Source of the DNA: a virus
IMG/VR virus record: IMGVR_UViG_3300044633_000086
Location: 1-24,718 of that record
DNA: 24,718 bases
Direction: 5' to 3' (one strand)
Part shown: positions 1 through 18,007 of the stretch, in pieces
Layout of the letters: the number at the start of each line of letters is the position of its first letter
Numbering within the stretch: the stretch's first letter is position 1
Notes under the pieces: model-generated
The model's input: only the letters and a program-made list of their open reading frames with translations
What the model was told of the DNA's origin: nothing
The model's database searches: none
Made by a program: the position numbers and the translations under genes

Positions 1-208
1 ACAGGAAGGTTTTAAGAAGGAAGTCAAGTCTGCTAAGAATGTCCTAGATAAGCTTGAGCAGATTGTCAACAGCAAGATTAAAGAGATTGTAATCGCTAAT
101 GATTACGATAGTCCTAGTTGGGCTTACAAGCAAGCAGACCGCAATGGTTACAACAGGGCTTTAACAGAAATTATTAATATCTTACACCTAGACCAAGAGG
201 TAAAATAA
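1..208 (+). CDS. Small phage protein of unknown function, 3' end only
   Basis: The reading frame starting at base 2 is open from the window edge to a TAA at 206-208. It gives 68 residues, so the start lies outside the window. The visible part is charged and helical, with many Lys and Glu, and ends in a stretch containing DSPSWAYKQADRNGYNRAL. That tail looks like a compact helical motif found in small uncharacterised phage proteins, but I cannot name a family. It sits directly before the scaffold gene; in T7-like genomes the portal gene lies upstream of the scaffold, so this is probably a small gene between portal and scaffold, or less likely a portal C-terminus. The scaffold ATG follows only three bases after the stop, which suggests translational coupling. 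Confidence 0.7.
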   Translation, partial: QEGFKKEVKSAKNVLDKLEQIVNSKIKEIVIANDYDSPSWAYKQADRNGYNRALTEIINILHLDQEVK

Positions 209-211
209 CAA

Positions 212-973
212 ATGAGCGACATTTTTAGTTCCGCGACCACGGAAAGTACGACAACTGATACGCAGCAGACCCAGACAAAAGAGTCTTTTGTAGATCATTT
301 GGTAGGAGATGGCAAGAAGTTTAGGGATATCGAAGCCCTTGCTAAGGGGAAGCTTGAAGCCGATAAGCACATTAGTGAAATCACTAAGACGCTTGACGAA
401 CTTCGGGCAGAACTTGCAAAGCAGGACTACGCTAAGAACCTCCTTGAACAGATGAGCAAGGGTTCTGAGACTGGTGCAGAACAGCCTCCTCCGGTAACAA
501 CCAGTTCCTCTAATACTGAGAACACCACTCAGAGCGCGAGTGACTTTGAAGCCCTTGTAGAAAAAGTGATTACTGCGAAGGAAAAGAGTAAGACTGCCTC
601 TCAGAATATCTCCGTAGTTGGAGAAGAGATGCAGAAGCAGTACGGTGATAAGACTGCCGATGTCCTAAAGGCTAAGAGTCTGGAGCTTAATATGTCTCTT
701 GACAGGCTTAAGGAAATTGCAGCCGAATCCCCTACAGCATTCTTTCAGTTGATTGGAGTTAAGAAGATGGGTGATAAGACTAGTACTTCCACTGGTGTTA
801 CTACCCAGTCAACAATTCGTAGTGAGAACTTCAACTCTTATTCTCAGGACCGTACCTTCGAATACTATCAGAAGCTACGTAAGGAGAACCGGAGTTTGTA
901 CTATTCCCCTAAGATTCAGAACACTATGCTTCAGGATCGTGAAAGACTTGGGGATCGTTTCTACAACTCTTAA
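212..973 (+). CDS. Putative capsid assembly scaffold protein
   Basis: 253 aa, lying immediately upstream of the major capsid gene, the usual scaffold position in T7-like phages. The protein has no globular-enzyme signature. The N-terminus (1-25) is Ser/Thr/Gln-rich. Residues about 30-75 form a charged segment likely to be coiled coil. Residues 80-125 are Pro/Ser/Thr/Asn-rich linker. Residues 125-190 are again Lys/Glu-rich and helical. The last 40 residues are rich in Arg and Tyr. A charged helical body with a basic C-terminus is typical of scaffolds, whose C-terminal helices bind the coat protein. No obvious strong Shine-Dalgarno precedes the ATG, so coupling with the preceding gene is likely. 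The assignment rests on position and composition rather than on a family motif. Confidence 0.7.
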   Translation: MSDIFSSATTESTTTDTQQTQTKESFVDHLVGDGKKFRDIEALAKGKLEADKHISEITKTLDELRAELAKQDYAKNLLEQMSKGSETGAEQPPPVTTSSSNTENTTQSASDFEALVEKVITAKEKSKTASQNISVVGEEMQKQYGDKTADVLKAKSLELNMSLDRLKEIAAESPTAFFQLIGVKKMGDKTSTSTGVTTQSTIRSENFNSYSQDRTFEYYQKLRKENRSLYYSPKIQNTMLQDRERLGDRFYNS

Positions 974-996
974 CATAATATAAAGGAGAATCAGAT

Positions 997-1938
997 ATGT
1001 CGGGTATGACAACTGGTAATGTTTCTCTCCTTACTCGCGCTGAAGTTTGGTCGCGTGAGCTTAAGGAGATTCTGCGTGATGAGCTTATGGCTCAGACATA
1101 CGTTCGCTGGCTTCAGGAGTTCCCTGACGGCGATACGTTTAAGATCCCGTCGATTGGTCAGGCGTACGTTGATGACTACGCTGAAGACGAAGCGGTTAAG
1201 TATCGTCCTCTCGACACTGGTCAGTTTACCTTCCAGATCACTGAGTACCTCTCTTCGGGTACATACGTGACGAAGAAGGCTGAGCAGGATATGTTCTACA
1301 TGAACGAGCTTGTCTCGCGCTTTGTGCCCGAGCAGGAGCGTGCCATTATGGAGCATGTCGAGGAGGCCATCCTTGGTCTTCAGTCTCAGCAGACGGCTGC
1401 TAATACCAATACAATTAACGGTGGTAAGCATCGTTATGTCGCTACTGGTTCTAGCAACGTCATTAACGTGGCTGACTTCGCCCGTGCTAACCTCTCGCTG
1501 AATCTTGCGAATGTCTCGGCTAATAACCGTGTCGCTATTGTGGACCCCTCTGTGGCTTACACCATTGAGACGGCTACTCAGCTTGTCGGCATTAATAACA
1601 ACCCGATGTTCGAGGGTATCGTCTCTTCGGGTATCGCAACGGGTATGCGCTTCGTCCGTAACGTCTACGGCTTCGATGTCTATACCTCGCAGCGTCTGGC
1701 TACAATCTCTTCGGAAACGCTTGAGACTGTGAACTGCGCTGGTTTCAAGGCTAACCTGTTCTTCTCTGCTGATGCTTCGGTTGTTCCGTTCATTGGTGCT
1801 TGGAGACAGATGCCTGAGGTCGATACTGAATATAATAAGGACTTCCAGCGTACAGAGTTCGTGACTACCGCTCGTTATGGTGTCAAGCTCTATCGTCCGG
1901 AGAACCTTATTACTGTTCTTTCGAACACCTCGGTTTAA
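997..1938 (+). CDS. Major capsid protein (HK97 fold)
   Basis: 313 aa, somewhat shorter than T7 gp10A (about 345 aa). The sequence follows the pattern of podoviral HK97-fold coat proteins: an N-terminal helical segment around residues 8-40, a beta-rich E-loop/P-domain region with the phrase KIPSIGQ near residue 50, a long spine-helix region around 100-130 (FVPEQERAIMEHVEEA), and an A-domain part with NNRVAIVDP and NPMFEGIVSSG. It lies directly behind the scaffold and has a good ribosome site (AAGGAG, 984-989). Codon use is strongly biased: 16 of 17 arginines are CGT or CGC, and only the one in WRQMPE is AGA, as expected for the most highly expressed gene. The long open frame on the opposite strand follows from this codon bias. 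I saw no programmed frameshift site at its end. Confidence 0.9.
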   Translation: MSGMTTGNVSLLTRAEVWSRELKEILRDELMAQTYVRWLQEFPDGDTFKIPSIGQAYVDDYAEDEAVKYRPLDTGQFTFQITEYLSSGTYVTKKAEQDMFYMNELVSRFVPEQERAIMEHVEEAILGLQSQQTAANTNTINGGKHRYVATGSSNVINVADFARANLSLNLANVSANNRVAIVDPSVAYTIETATQLVGINNNPMFEGIVSSGIATGMRFVRNVYGFDVYTSQRLATISSETLETVNCAGFKANLFFSADASVVPFIGAWRQMPEVDTEYNKDFQRTEFVTTARYGVKLYRPENLITVLSNTSV

Positions 1939-1953
1939 TAGGAGGATATTAAT

Positions 1954-2421
1954 ATGAGTGTTGATTGGACAAACTCTGACGGGCTTGAAGTCCGTTTCAC
2001 TGGCCCTGAGGCTAACCAGAGCGGTGCTGGTGTCTCTACTCTGGGCGCTACAAAGGAACTGATTGTGGACTTTGACTTTGCTACAGCGATTACCGCTGCG
2101 GCTTGGTCGCATGAAGCTTTCGTTCCGGCTGGCGCGTACATCAAGAAGGCTACGCTGATTGTGACTTCGGCTATGACTGGTACTTCTGGTACCCTGACCA
2201 TTGGTCTGGCCCAGAAGGATGGTACAGCTATTGTTGCCGATGGCATTGATGTGGCTATCGCACAGGCTGATCTTGGAGCAAACGAAGTCGTTCTTTGTAA
2301 CGGTACTTTGGCTGGTGGTGTTCTTTCTATCGGTGCTGCTAATGGCTACGTCTACACGACCCTTGGTGGTACGGTGACTGGTGGCCGTGGTAGACTGGTG
2401 GTCGAGTACATCGAAGTGTAA
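1954..2421 (+). CDS. Small beta-rich head protein, probable capsid decoration protein
   Basis: 155 aa, starting 12 bases after the capsid stop behind an optimal AGGAGG (1941-1946). The protein is small-residue-rich (Gly, Ala, Thr, Val) and beta-strand-rich throughout, with no enzyme motif. It ends in a strand containing RGRLVVEYIEV, typical of a compact beta sandwich. A small beta protein immediately after the coat gene, with the same host-like codon choice and ahead of a hairpin, is what one expects of a head decoration or capsid-stabilising protein made in high amounts. A head-tail joining role is an alternative. Function is inferred from position, size and composition only. Confidence 0.6.
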   Translation: MSVDWTNSDGLEVRFTGPEANQSGAGVSTLGATKELIVDFDFATAITAAAWSHEAFVPAGAYIKKATLIVTSAMTGTSGTLTIGLAQKDGTAIVADGIDVAIAQADLGANEVVLCNGTLAGGVLSIGAANGYVYTTLGGTVTGGRGRLVVEYIEV

Positions 2422-2431
2422 CACTACTCTT

Positions 2432-2466
2432 GGGGGAGCCTAACTAACGTAAGTTCGGGTTCCCCC
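2432..2466 (+). terminator. Strong hairpin behind the capsid genes (partial terminator or mRNA-processing hairpin)
   Basis: GGGGGAGCC (2432-2440) pairs with GGTTCCCCC (2458-2466), with one G-T wobble. Inside, AACT (2442-2445) can pair with AGTT (2452-2455), giving roughly 13 base pairs in all around a six-base loop. The downstream tract is weak (TTGACATCTTTG), so full rho-independent termination is doubtful. T7 has its terminator T-phi in the same place, just after the capsid gene. A read-through terminator or a 3'-end-protecting hairpin is the likely role. Confidence 0.75.
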
Positions 2467-2494
2467 TTGACATCTTTGAAAGAATCGATATAAT
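2467..2494 (+). promoter_or_regulatory. Sigma70-type promoter ahead of the tail genes
   Basis: A perfect -35 box TTGACA (2467-2472) is followed after 16 bases by a perfect -10 box TATAAT (2489-2494). The -35 begins on the base directly after the hairpin stem. The predicted start is near 2501, leaving a leader of about 25 bases with a Shine-Dalgarno-like GGGGTGA (2512-2518) seven bases before the ATG at 2526. This is the largest non-coding gap in the plus-strand block, so selection for a control element is plausible. Use by host RNA polymerase is inferred. Confidence 0.8.
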
Positions 2495-2525
2495 AATACT
2501 AATGGTCCTCCGGGGTGAACTATAG

Positions 2526-3149
2526 ATGGCTAACGTACAACATTCAAGTCTGACAGATCCTAACCTTCATGAACCGAAGGGTATTGCTGCTGCATCTGCT
2601 AACCAACTATACCTTTCTAATGGTAGTGGCTCTGGTGTATGGACTAATGCTAATAGGTTCCCCGGTACAGGCTGGGGTAAATATACTAATACGACATACG
2701 TAGGGACTACATACTTAGCAGTTAGTACTACTAATGTACTTCTTCCCTTTACGACAGATGATACTGTCTCTCAGATTCCGATTACCCTAACGGGTACAAC
2801 TTCCAGTCTTATGAATCTGGCTACTGAGACTCTCCAGTTTGTTGCTGCGGGAGATCTTCATTCTATTACTCTCTCTCTAAAGGTAGATTCTTTTGCTACT
2901 GGTTCTCCTAAAGTTTTAGATATTTCTATCTTTGGGTCTTCTGATGGTATTACTTATGGTACACTTCTTGGTGAAACTTCTGTATCTCTAGTTAAGTCTA
3001 CTAATCAGTTTATTACTGAATCCGCTTTATTCCCGGTGACATCTAATATGGTGTCTCATGGTGCTAGAATTAATATTAAGACTGATGTTGGTACAGCTAA
3101 TATAGTTGATATCGGTCTCATTACAGCCCGTATACATAAGGCTAGATAA
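2526..3149 (+). CDS. Fibre-like or head-attachment structural protein
   Basis: 207 aa. The first 40 residues contain HSSLTDPNLHEPKG and a following SANQLYLSNGSGSGVW stretch, a short N-terminal module I recognise from many phage head-fibre and structural proteins, where it probably serves as a docking peptide. The rest (about 60-207) is beta-strand-rich with many Ser and Thr and no enzyme motif, consistent with a jelly-roll or trimeric fibre domain, possibly the surface-binding part. It is the first gene behind the sigma70 promoter and precedes tail tubular protein A by three bases. Whether it sits on the head or the tail cannot be told from sequence; position between head and tail genes fits either. 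Confidence 0.55.
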   Translation: MANVQHSSLTDPNLHEPKGIAAASANQLYLSNGSGSGVWTNANRFPGTGWGKYTNTTYVGTTYLAVSTTNVLLPFTTDDTVSQIPITLTGTTSSLMNLATETLQFVAAGDLHSITLSLKVDSFATGSPKVLDISIFGSSDGITYGTLLGETSVSLVKSTNQFITESALFPVTSNMVSHGARINIKTDVGTANIVDIGLITARIHKAR

Positions 3150-3152
3150 AGC

Positions 3153-3911
3153 ATGGCTACAGCTAAAATGACACTCTTGGAGATTGTTCAGGATGTCCTG
3201 AATGATTTGGACTCCGATGAGGTTAACAGCATTTCCGATACAGTAGAAGCAACCCAAATAGCTAATGTCTGTAGGAGTGTGTACTATGATGTAATAACGA
3301 CAGTCGATCTTCCTGAACATACAGAGTTGATGAGGGTAACAGGTCTATCCGATTCTACTCGTCCCAACTTCATGGATGCTAATAACATCACTGAGATTAA
3401 GGAGTTGAGATACAATGTATCTGAGACTGCTGGACAGATTGAATATAGTCTTGTCAATTATCTTTTACCGGATGAATTTATTCAGAGAATTGTCAAGAGG
3501 GATACCTCTTCATCCGAGATAATTCTTGTTACAGATCCAACATCAGGAATTTCTCTGCCTATCGACAATAGCAGAATGCCTACATACTATACTTCATTTG
3601 ATGATAGGTATCTCTGCTTCGATAGTTACAAAAGTTCTGTAGATAATACGCTACAGACAAGTAAGACAATGGTACTAGGGATTAAGCTTCCGACATTCAC
3701 TATGACAGATGCTTCTGTTCCAGACATGGATGATACGATCTTTCCCTATTACCTTTCTGAAGTAAAGGTTAGGGCTGAGTCCCTCTTTAAGGGTGGACCT
3801 GATCCTAAGACAGAACAGTTTGCTAGAAAGCACAGATACTTCCAGAAGAACAATCGCTGGAAGACTGGAGAACAAAGGATACTCAATGACTATGGTAGAA
3901 AACGATACTGA
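3153..3911 (+). CDS. Tail tubular protein A (T7 gp11-like)
   Basis: 252 aa, compared with 196 aa for T7 gp11. The protein starts with the helical pattern usual for this family (TLLEIVQDVLNDLDSDEVNSI) and continues with a helix containing CRSVYYDVITTVDLPEHTE, close to the family's QV...R..Y......R.WPF pattern in position and polarity. The middle part is beta-rich, and the end (FPYYLSEVKVRAESLFK) is the C-terminal helix found in gatekeeper proteins. In T7, gp11 forms the ring between the connector and the gp12 nozzle. The gene order TTPA-small gene-TTPB agrees. Arginine codons differ sharply from the capsid gene: 12 of 15 are AGA or AGG. The last 26 bases overlap the next gene. Confidence 0.85.
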   Translation: MATAKMTLLEIVQDVLNDLDSDEVNSISDTVEATQIANVCRSVYYDVITTVDLPEHTELMRVTGLSDSTRPNFMDANNITEIKELRYNVSETAGQIEYSLVNYLLPDEFIQRIVKRDTSSSEIILVTDPTSGISLPIDNSRMPTYYTSFDDRYLCFDSYKSSVDNTLQTSKTMVLGIKLPTFTMTDASVPDMDDTIFPYYLSEVKVRAESLFKGGPDPKTEQFARKHRYFQKNNRWKTGEQRILNDYGRKRY

Positions 3912-4221
3912 CCTTATCGTAACTGAAGAGAATAAAGAGGGTACAATTCTTAACGTAACCTCAAGTAAGCGAAAGTCTATGTTTACTATTTATAAGCCTA
4001 CCGATGGCTATAGTATGTTCAAGATTAAGTCCGAGAGTGGTAGCATGCCTGAACATCTCTCCGGTTATTACACAAATAGAAAGACAGCCCTATCTGATTT
4101 GACTTACTGGTTGGTTCATACACCTGAAAGTAAGGAAGCTAAGTGGGATAGAATGTTCGGTGAGGACAAAGCTCCTCCTCCGAAGCTAAAGGAAAAGAAG
4201 AGTGGCACCACAGCAGTATAG
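3886..4221 (+). CDS. Small structural-region protein of unknown function, overlapping both tail tube genes
   Basis: The frame is open from 3793, but the best start is ATG 3886, with AAAGGA six bases upstream (3874-3879); a second ATG follows at 3892. That gives 111 aa. It overlaps tail tubular A by 26 bases and tail tubular B by 20 bases. The N-terminal half is polar and beta-rich (SMFTIYKPTDGYSMFKIK); a helix around residue 65-85 includes TALSDLTYWLVHTPESKEAKW; the C-terminus is Pro/Lys-rich. No family is recognised. Its place inside the tail-tube pair suggests a minor virion or assembly role, but there is no direct evidence. Starting at 3793 would give 31 more residues overlapping TTPA and lacks a ribosome site. 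Confidence 0.75.
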   Translation: MTMVENDTDLIVTEENKEGTILNVTSSKRKSMFTIYKPTDGYSMFKIKSESGSMPEHLSGYYTNRKTALSDLTYWLVHTPESKEAKWDRMFGEDKAPPPKLKEKKSGTTAV

Positions 4222-6589
4222 TCAGAAAACTGTAAATACTTTTATTAAGGGGCTTTATACTGAAGCCTCTGTGATGACCTATCCTGAGAATACTTCTTCA
4301 GATGAACTAAACTTTGATCTTCTTATTGATGGTTCTAGGCGCAGGAGAAGGGGCCTTGTCTATGAGACAAACTATCAGAACAGTTCCTTCTCCGTAGCCT
4401 CTGGTGATCTTATCCACTGTGAGACATGGACTAATGTGTCTGGTATTGGTGGTACTGAGTTCCTCGTTGTTCAGCATAACAACATGGTGTACTTCTACGA
4501 TAAGTCTATCGACACTATCTCTGCTGGTCAGAAGTCTTTCAGCATTAATCTAAATGATTACTCTGCTAATAATAGCTACTCTGTCTCTAGTTCTTACATC
4601 AATATTGCTTCTGTTACTGGGTATCTAATCATTGTTTCCCCGGCTATCGAACCTATTCGTGTTGAATATCTTCCGACTGATGATAATATAACTGTTACGA
4701 AGATCAAGATTCAGATTAGAGATCTTGAATATCTTGGGATGTCTTCGAATATTACGTTTATCGCTAGGACAAGCAACACTGTTACGATTACAGTTAACAG
4801 TTCCCACTATTATAATGCTGGTGATACCGTAGAGATTGACTCTTCTTTCTACCAGTTTAATGGTACATTCACTCTTACTTCGGCTCCAACAAGTACGACA
4901 TTTACGTACACTCTGAATGGTGCAGATTTCCCTAACACAGCAGCATCTGGTCTGGCTACTAAAGACGTTGCCCCTGAGACTCCTCCTACTGCTATTACGA
5001 ATAACTATCTCTACGATCTCTTTAATCAGGGATGGTATTCGGATAATAATGGTAGGGCTGGTAATGCATTTGACTATTGGGACAATACAAGAGCTGACTT
5101 CCCTCCTAGAAATAAACCTTGGTGGGTAGGTAAGAATACAAGTAACGATCAGGATATTGACCAGTACTTAAAGATTGAGTACGGTAATACTCTTGCCCCG
5201 AATGGTCACTTTATTCTAGACTTCTTTAATCAGAATAGATCCGCTGTATCGAATGTTAATAACCTTACGACAGTAATTGAGACTGCAAGGTTTAACTCTG
5301 TTGCTCCGTACGCTGGTCGAGTTTGGTATGCTGGCCTTGACTCTGCTAAGAACGGTGGCAAGATCTTTTACTCTAAGACAATCGAGAGTGAGAAGGACTT
5401 TGGTATCTGCTACCAGAAAGAAGATCCTACTTCTGAAGATACTCCCGGTCTGGTAGACTCTGATGGTGGTTACATTATTATCCCTGAGGCATCCAGCATT
5501 CAGGCTCTGTTCACGACAGGTTCTATTATGTATGTCCTTGCATCGAATGGTGTATGGGTTATCGGTGGTGTCGATCAGGTCTTTAAAGCTACAGAGTACT
5601 ATGTTAGTAAGATCTCCAGCTTTGGTATTGCCAGTAAGAGAACCTTGATTAATGTTGCAGACTCACCTGTCTACTGGGATACCTCTGGTATTTACACCGT
5701 AGCGATTGAGAATAATACTCCCTACGTTACAAGTATGTCTGATAACATCCGTTCTTTTTATGAGGCTATTTCTCCTGAAAAGAAGAAGGACGCTACTGCT
5801 GTCTTCGACAGACTGAACAAGAGAATTATCTGGATGTACTCCAGTGAGGATGAGACAGTCCCTAATAAGAAGTCTAAGATTCTAATCTATGATCTTAACC
5901 TTCAGGCTTTCTTCCCTTGGGAGATCTCCGATGCTACTGGTACTAGCCCTTATCTTTACTGTGGCTTCTACCTCTCTGGTCTAGGATCTAGTGAAGTAGC
6001 CTATAATATTGTTGTAGGGGCAGATCAAGTCATCGATGCTAGTTCTAATACCGTAGTTGAGACTATTGCCTCTACAAGTTCTAATGCTAATTCAGATACT
6101 AAGTTTCTTGTAAGGACTGCTAATGGATATCTTACTGTTGCTAACTTTACTAATAGGTCTTTCCTTGACTGGGGTTCTGCTGACTACTCTTCTTACGCTG
6201 AGACAGCCTACGACTTCTCCGGTTCGGCTATGCTCAAGAAGAATGTCCCGTACATCGTAAGCTACATGAGACGGACAGAAAAGAACTATGTCGTTTCTGG
6301 TACTGGTTATACCGTAGACTATCCTTCTGGATGTATCCTTACTGTTAAATGGGATCTCTCTGTTGATAGTTCTCGGTGGAGTAGCCCTAGCCAGCTTTAT
6401 CGTATGGTAAACTATCCTATAGTAGATCCAAACAATTTGACTTTTACTTATCCTTATGATACAATTGTAGCTAGAACAAAGATAAGAGGTAAGGGTAGAG
6501 TCTTGCGTATGCGCTTCGAAAGCGAGACAGGTAAAGACCTGAACCTTATTGGTTGGGAAACTGTCGATGCAAGTAATACCAGTTATTAG
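4202..6589 (+). CDS. Tail tubular protein B (T7 gp12-like nozzle protein)
   Basis: 795 aa, practically the length of T7 gp12 (794 aa). The start is GTG (4202) with purine-rich AAGGAAAAG upstream and a 20-base overlap with the preceding gene. The N-terminus is diagnostic: FIKGLYTEASVMTYPEN followed by DELNFDLLIDGSRRRRRG, the 'N-F-G-L-x-TE ... P....D..N.....dG....R.G' pattern shared by podoviral nozzle proteins. The body is beta-rich and propeller-like, with segments such as GRVWYAGLDSAKNGGKIFYS and VYWDTSGIYTV that are typical of gp12 homologues. The C-terminal part ends with RMRFESETGKDLNLIGW, also characteristic. It forms the distal tail tube through which DNA leaves. The last 23 bases overlap the GNAT gene. 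Confidence 0.9.
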   Translation: MAPQQYSQKTVNTFIKGLYTEASVMTYPENTSSDELNFDLLIDGSRRRRRGLVYETNYQNSSFSVASGDLIHCETWTNVSGIGGTEFLVVQHNNMVYFYDKSIDTISAGQKSFSINLNDYSANNSYSVSSSYINIASVTGYLIIVSPAIEPIRVEYLPTDDNITVTKIKIQIRDLEYLGMSSNITFIARTSNTVTITVNSSHYYNAGDTVEIDSSFYQFNGTFTLTSAPTSTTFTYTLNGADFPNTAASGLATKDVAPETPPTAITNNYLYDLFNQGWYSDNNGRAGNAFDYWDNTRADFPPRNKPWWVGKNTSNDQDIDQYLKIEYGNTLAPNGHFILDFFNQNRSAVSNVNNLTTVIETARFNSVAPYAGRVWYAGLDSAKNGGKIFYSKTIESEKDFGICYQKEDPTSEDTPGLVDSDGGYIIIPEASSIQALFTTGSIMYVLASNGVWVIGGVDQVFKATEYYVSKISSFGIASKRTLINVADSPVYWDTSGIYTVAIENNTPYVTSMSDNIRSFYEAISPEKKKDATAVFDRLNKRIIWMYSSEDETVPNKKSKILIYDLNLQAFFPWEISDATGTSPYLYCGFYLSGLGSSEVAYNIVVGADQVIDASSNTVVETIASTSSNANSDTKFLVRTANGYLTVANFTNRSFLDWGSADYSSYAETAYDFSGSAMLKKNVPYIVSYMRRTEKNYVVSGTGYTVDYPSGCILTVKWDLSVDSSRWSSPSQLYRMVNYPIVDPNNLTFTYPYDTIVARTKIRGKGRVLRMRFESETGKDLNLIGWETVDASNTSY

Positions 6590-17743: not shown

Positions 17744-18007
17744 TTAGAACTCGTACATATTAGCCATTAGTCTATTCTTGGCTAACTCAAGGTGTATATA
17801 AACTTCTTCAATAGAGATAGTATCTGACCAACTAATCTTGAAGTGGTCATCCTTCCAACCTATCATAATTAGATTGTCGTAGTTATTTATACCATCTTTA
17901 AGAAGAGTGTTAGGATTAACCCCCGGAGTCTCCTCTGGGGGTTTTTCTTTTGCTGTGACAAGCTTAACGATATTCTTTATCTTACTTACGTCAGTACCGT
18001 CATCCAT
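17744..18007 (-). CDS. 87-aa phage protein of unknown function
   Basis: Starts at ATG 18007, overlapping the nrdJ stop by one base (TAATG), and is the last gene of the minus-strand operon. The protein begins acidic, has a short KEKPPEETPGVNPNT linker, then a mixed segment with DNLIMIGWKDDHFKISWSD and a closing helix (EEVYIHLELAKNRLMANMY). It looks like a small folded domain, but I do not recognise the family. The linker codons are exactly those forming the terminator hairpin of the opposite strand, so this part of the protein is probably under nucleic-acid rather than protein constraint. Confidence 0.75.
   Translation of the reverse strand: MDDGTDVSKIKNIVKLVTAKEKPPEETPGVNPNTLLKDGINNYDNLIMIGWKDDHFKISWSDTISIEEVYIHLELAKNRLMANMYEF
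17918..17950 (+). terminator. Rho-independent terminator of the plus-strand late operon
   Basis: AACCCCC (17918-17924) pairs with GGGGGTT (17937-17943) and GGA/TCC can pair inside the loop; the stem is followed by TTTTTCTTT (17942-17950). This is a strong intrinsic terminator for rightward transcripts. Read leftward there is no U tract, so it should not stop the minus-strand operon. It lies within the coding sequence of the opposing 87-aa gene. Confidence 0.85.

Follow-up and report, generated by a model that had tools for sequence, protein, structure and literature searches.

A conserved RNA hairpin and a host-type consensus promoter in the gap between capsid and tail genes of Cobavirinae-like podoviruses

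The gap between the capsid genes and the tail genes of a Cobavirinae-like podovirus (Zobellviridae), a virus that infects bacteria, holds a strong RNA hairpin directly followed by a perfect sigma70 promoter. Related phages nearly always keep the hairpin at this place and mostly keep the promoter, and the paired bases of the hairpin covary. We consider it probable, from comparison of sequences, that the gap is a boundary between two late transcription units, at which the hairpin would terminate or attenuate transcription and host RNA polymerase would restart for the fibre and tail genes. The whole 24,718-bp virus record that was analysed is referred to here as the window.

Genes around the gap

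The capsid protein, the gene order and the coding arms of the window resemble those of SIO1 and place it in Cobavirinae (Zobellviridae). SIO1, a Roseobacter phage, and other Cobavirinae are its capsid relatives (60% identity between the window and SIO1), and in the capsid tree the window falls in a clade of its own. No named phage was matched by a megablast search with the first 12 kb of the window. On the plus strand, the order is scaffold, major capsid protein, a 155-aa frame, the gap, a head-fibre-like protein and tail proteins, with the ribonucleotide reductase and DNA polymerase genes on the opposite strand (Table 1). The preliminary description had placed the hairpin behind the capsid genes; these are the gene of the major capsid protein and the 155-aa frame, which encodes only probably a decoration protein and gave no confident family match in PHROG and Pfam profile searches. 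In Pfam, neither the capsid-associated nor the fibre-like protein reached a family above the cut-off. The first gene behind the gap, which is the next conserved gene in the relatives too, would encode a head-fibre-like protein.

Table 1. Features of the window at and around the gap between capsid and tail genes
Feature	Position	Strand	Basis and remarks
Scaffold gene	212-973	+	
Major capsid protein gene	997-1938	+	PHROG 267 major head protein, E 6.1e-38; tblastn 60.5% identity to SIO1 gp29.1
155-aa reading frame, putative capsid-associated (decoration) protein	1954-2421	+	Position and reading frame
RNA hairpin, putatively closing the capsid unit	2432-2466	+	Arms 2432-2445 and 2452-2466, loop 2446-2451, bulge 2456; fold and compensatory changes in relatives
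-35 box TTGACA	2467-2472	+	Adjoins hairpin; sequence; conserved in relatives
16-base spacer	2473-2488	+	T-rich first half (TCTTT), the sole U-rich stretch left 3' of the hairpin; poorly conserved
-10 box TATAAT	2489-2494	+	Sequence; conserved in relatives
Expected transcription start	2501	+	Spacing rule, 7 bases past the -10 box
GGGGTGA, possible Shine-Dalgarno	2512-2518	+	Predicted from sequence; 7 bases before ATG at 2526
Head-fibre-like protein gene, first behind the promoter	2526-3149	+	HEPKG N-terminus; PHROG 38624 and 8270, unknown function
Tail protein gene, tubular protein A type, next after the fibre-like gene	3153-3911	+	PHROG 7592 tail protein, E 3.2e-75

The hairpin

The hairpin of the window starts 10 bases 3' of the stop codon and has 14 pairs, a 6-base loop and a single bulged C, with an energy of -21.6 kcal/mol when folded alone. 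It had been described as a hairpin of about 13 bp ending at 2466; the end is correct and the stem is slightly longer. The folding energy of a 121-base stretch including the hairpin is ordinary compared with shuffles (z -1.18), and whole-stretch folding energy was dropped as evidence for this reason; conservation in relatives carries the proof instead. An Rfam search of 2200-2800 gave no match. Compared with the relative L001, the window has an extra apical stem at 2441-2456 (AACT...AGTT) between identical flanks, an insertion that preserves the hairpin fold.

A viral collection was scanned with three capsid proteins as queries (from the window, from SIO1 and from ICBM2); together with named phages, this provided 226 loci with readable gaps, 134 of them distinct. 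A strong hairpin (at least -13.9 kcal/mol) is present in 132 of the 134 distinct gaps, mostly 5-13 bases past the stop codon; the two exceptions are L280 (-9.8 kcal/mol) and L068, which has a rearranged fold. A hairpin of -13.5 kcal/mol or better occurs in 86% of real gaps and in 5% of dinucleotide-shuffled ones, and a terminator score above 0, calculated by a formula of the d'Aubenton Carafa type, in 84% and 0.7%, respectively.

Alignment of the relatives' gaps also bears out the compensatory change by which the preliminary description had proposed to judge the stem. Fifteen distinct stems of similar size could be aligned almost without gaps, and 99.3% of the cells are paired. Both sides have changed in 8 of the 9 stem pairs, none of 500 shuffles reaches the covariation score, and slid registers score far lower. 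Because the stems were chosen by folding, they are biased towards pairing, and the slid registers and double changes are the safer evidence. The outgroups VpV262 and Pecta (an Erwinia phage), and also Vibrio phage 1.015, have a hairpin with a U-rich tail at the same place, and a U-run stands directly behind the stem in SIO1, ICBM1, VpV262 and Pecta. The element is thus a stable G+C-rich hairpin kept by pairing, as in intrinsic (Rho-independent) terminators, and its position, its pairing and the U-rich tails of the relatives make terminator or attenuator its likeliest role.

The promoter

TTGACA was reported at 2467, followed after 16 bases by TATAAT, and this is accurate: the site matches the consensus at 12/12 positions, with a spacing inside the 16-18 bases of housekeeping sigma70 promoters. 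No other 12/12 sigma70 match exists in the window, and in G001, a 46,964-bp relative, the counterpart of this site is likewise unique. Tolerating two mismatches gives four matches in the window where three are expected by chance, so that only the perfect match stands out; by a hand estimate assuming equal base use, about 0.01 perfect matches would be expected for three spacings in 24.7 kb on both strands.

Among the 134 distinct gaps, 98 carry a perfect TTGACA-N16/17-TATAAT and 2 more have TTGACT. When loci are assigned to clades by the query that retrieved them, the perfect promoter is found in 29/34 distinct gaps of the window clade (plus the 2 with TTGACT; spacer 16), 36/39 of the SIO1 clade (spacer 17) and 33/42 of the ICBM2/CRP-4 clade (spacer 16 or 17). 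The isolates SIO1, ICBM1, ICBM2 and P12053L have it in the gap. The remaining 34 distinct gaps score at most 9/12, except for three SIO1-clade gaps at 10; gaps thus reach either 11-12 or no more than 10, and the promoter is either present whole or absent. Across three clades of the capsid tree the spacer sequences differ widely while the boxes stay, as expected of a sigma70 promoter. The hexamers were part of the search, which makes their conservation partly circular, and their information content of 2.0 bits was not used as proof. In the relatives, 157 perfect promoters lie in 22.7 kb of gaps, 25 in the other 1.83 Mb of the same strand and none on the reverse strand, counts that come from related loci and hence are not independent. 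Whole records of SIO1, ICBM1 and P12053L contain two perfect promoters and that of ICBM2 three, one always in the gap; the second in ICBM1 is at the start of the structural arm.

The promoter is absent from CRP-4, T5S1, VpV262, Vibrio 1.015 and Pecta, and also from the close relatives L034-L037 and L042. Loss of both boxes and stem in close relatives had been named beforehand as evidence against the arrangement; in these five loci the promoter is lost and the stem is kept. Mapped onto a capsid tree with 163 rows, the state of the promoter (fused to the hairpin, separate from it or absent) changes 17 times, and at least 8 changes involving absence are forced by well-supported branches, which indicates that it was gained and lost several times while the hairpin was retained. 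Such turnover would fit a promoter that does nothing to balance capsid and tail output, being either an inert remnant or a strong early promoter of the fibre and tail genes; phage factors are not required by a consensus promoter, which could be active right after entry. We hold this to be very improbable, as the boxes persist in three distinct clades of the capsid tree with drifting spacers and the named genomes with this site have just one or two further perfect promoters.

Eight loci (L049, L050, L056, L058, L061, L062, L075 and L077) have no promoter behind the capsid gene and have a perfect sigma70 promoter upstream of the scaffold and capsid genes. In L049, L056, L061 and L075 the upstream promoter together with the hairpin would make a separate unit of the capsid block, like that of T7. 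In another six (L002, L023, L024, L028, L029 and L052) an HNH endonuclease gene (PHROG 2255, E 3.7e-15 in L002) is located exactly between the promoter and the head-fibre-like gene, likely a mobile insertion behind a strong promoter.

Downstream of the promoter, GGGGTG is kept in many close relatives. Many close relatives also conserve the stretch GGTCCTCCGGGGTGAAC (2504-2520), which lies in the expected 5' leader; CCTCC and GGGGTGA within it resemble an anti-Shine-Dalgarno and a Shine-Dalgarno sequence. As a repeated motif, GGTCCTCCGGGGTGAAC was found in a single copy in the window; the promoter block with its downstream bases, sought as a repeat in the viral collection, occurs once per matched stretch.

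Fusion of the hairpin and the -35 box

In the window clade, 27 distinct gaps have TTGACA immediately next to the stem's C-run, a zero-base distance that holds over many stem sequences. Direct fusion is confined to that clade, in which four loci (L015, L045, L048 and L202) have 7-9 bases between hairpin and -35 box; those of the other clades are mostly 9-22 bases apart and separated by a U-rich stretch. In the fused form most of the U-tract is lost and the -35 box stands in its place. The preliminary description had stressed this fusion; it is true of the window clade and is less likely to be the main point, since phages of the SIO1 and ICBM2 types keep hairpin and promoter separate. The terminator score of the window is borderline (-0.8) because just TT precedes GACA (TTGACATCTTTG behind the stem); those of its fused relatives are 2 to 42, except L017 at -16.5. 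With most of the U-tract lost, termination in the fused clade is probably leaky, and from its sequence the hairpin there is probably a leaky terminator or mainly a protector of the 3' end.

Protection of mRNA is the main rival to termination and is most plausible for the fused clade. The hairpin would then be a stabiliser or processing site: polymerase would read through, the downstream RNA would be cut or decay, the 3' end of the abundant capsid message would be protected, and the promoter would top up the tail genes. The missing U-tract of the window clade (TTGACATC behind the stem), the score of the window and the tails of several other relatives, which read ACTTAC or ACCCTTGC and have no U runs, point in this direction. 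We find this possible but doubtful, given that the same hairpin has U-rich tails in marine and outgroup relatives, that most gaps score above 0 and that a terminator has been measured at the same place in the T7-like phage LUZ100 (PMC10134795).

Another question is whether hairpin and promoter act as one composite switch, in which promoter-bound polymerase would block or pause the one arriving from the capsid genes at the moment of hairpin formation and so cause termination without a U-tract, and heavy capsid transcription would clear the promoter. The zero-base distance in the 27 gaps is compatible with such a switch, as is the -35 box of some relatives in pairing partly with the base of the stem, but we rate the switch as improbable. 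If it were true, tail output would be inversely coupled to capsid transcription, a feedback on the head-to-tail ratio. In L007, L032 and L038 the base of the stem takes in the -35 box by pairing, and a U-run is provided by the spacer. Over nine distinct cases this pairing amounts to 3.8 of 6 pairs, compared with 2.5 in shuffled sequences, and with just 2 of 6 pairs in the window we regard it as too weak to count as a conserved feature.

The position of the inverted repeat at the exact edge of the -35 box in the 27 gaps could also suggest a DNA operator, whose bound protein would control the adjoining promoter; this edge is a frequent binding place of regulators. A DNA-binding protein would, however, conserve sequence and not RNA pairing, whereas the stem varies freely in sequence and in length (20 to 35 bases in the fused clade) with its pairing kept, and the same hairpin occurs without the promoter and at other distances. 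The operator was ruled out on the changing sequence and length of the stem, and we give it hardly any credence.

Relation to known systems and proposed working

In T7, the terminator T-phi lies behind gene 10. In the T7-like phage LUZ100, RNA mapping revealed a strong terminator immediately 3' of the capsid gene, as in T7 (PMC10134795); predictions place a terminator of JG068 behind its capsid gene (PMC3765740) and terminators of KP34-like phages between structural genes (PMC4411677). Like T7, LUZ100 and JG068, the window has its hairpin behind the major capsid gene and before the tail genes, and its gene order puts the site between the major capsid gene and the tail tube genes. T7, LUZ100, JG068 and the KP34-like phages encode a single-subunit RNA polymerase of their own; for SIO1 the lack of an RNA polymerase is reported (PMC6775973). 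A difference from the T7-type cases is that a host sigma70 promoter follows at once, and that in the window clade it replaces the U-tract. The gap would work like T-phi and is not classed as T-phi, the report of a missing polymerase concerning SIO1 and the window being a 24.7-kb fragment. Both the likeness to T-phi and the restart from a host-type promoter, proposed in the preliminary description, are well supported by comparison, namely by gene position, compensatory change and boxes kept with drifting spacers in three clades of the capsid tree.

The Cobavirinae isolates SIO1, ICBM1, ICBM2 and P12053L share the gene order and the hairpin-plus-promoter gap of the window; they differ in keeping hairpin and promoter apart and in lacking the 155-aa gene ahead of the hairpin. 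Tandems of terminator and promoter between bacterial operons are similar, a hairpin ending one unit and a sigma70 promoter opening the next, but differ from the window clade, whose zero-base distance is retained while stem sequences vary. The cobavirus paper names no promoters in its main text, and the one terminator given there is bidirectional and lies between the two arms of the genome (PMC6775973). Our literature search, which covered openly readable main texts, found no description of post-capsid promoters in cobaviruses or Zobellviridae. A terminator behind the capsid gene is already known; in these texts we did not find described a conserved host-type promoter behind it in Cobavirinae, or the fusion of that promoter with the hairpin in one clade.

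We propose that polymerase from upstream promoters would run through the scaffold and capsid genes into the hairpin, which as intrinsic terminator or attenuator would end a share of the transcripts and leave a structured, decay-resistant 3' end on the capsid transcript. Host RNA polymerase with the housekeeping sigma factor would start anew at the consensus promoter, near 2501, and the restarted transcript would cover the head-fibre and tail genes. Termination would be partial, and the purpose may be the capsid-to-tail ratio, the two units being set separately with no need of a phage polymerase. When phages with T7-type particles have no RNA polymerase of their own, the host polymerase alone has to provide for capsid protein in large excess over tail protein; a conserved hairpin joined by a consensus host promoter at the place of T-phi hints at a way of doing so in a widespread group. 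Cultured isolates exist (on Lentibacter, Celeribacter and Roseobacter), the bases to be mapped are defined, and natural variants that have or lack the promoter are numerous. A compact terminator-promoter part is a possible use.

Other observations

In the SIO1 record AF189021, 106-3248 matches ICBM1 in inverted orientation and 3240-4689 matches an overlapping stretch directly; the record looks inverted and partly duplicated at 106-4689, perhaps through an assembly error. A strong terminator-like hairpin with a T-run is located at 17918-17943 of the window, where the two gene arms meet. It lies inside a minus-strand frame (17744-18007) and matches the arm terminator described for cobaviruses in the main text of PMC6775973.
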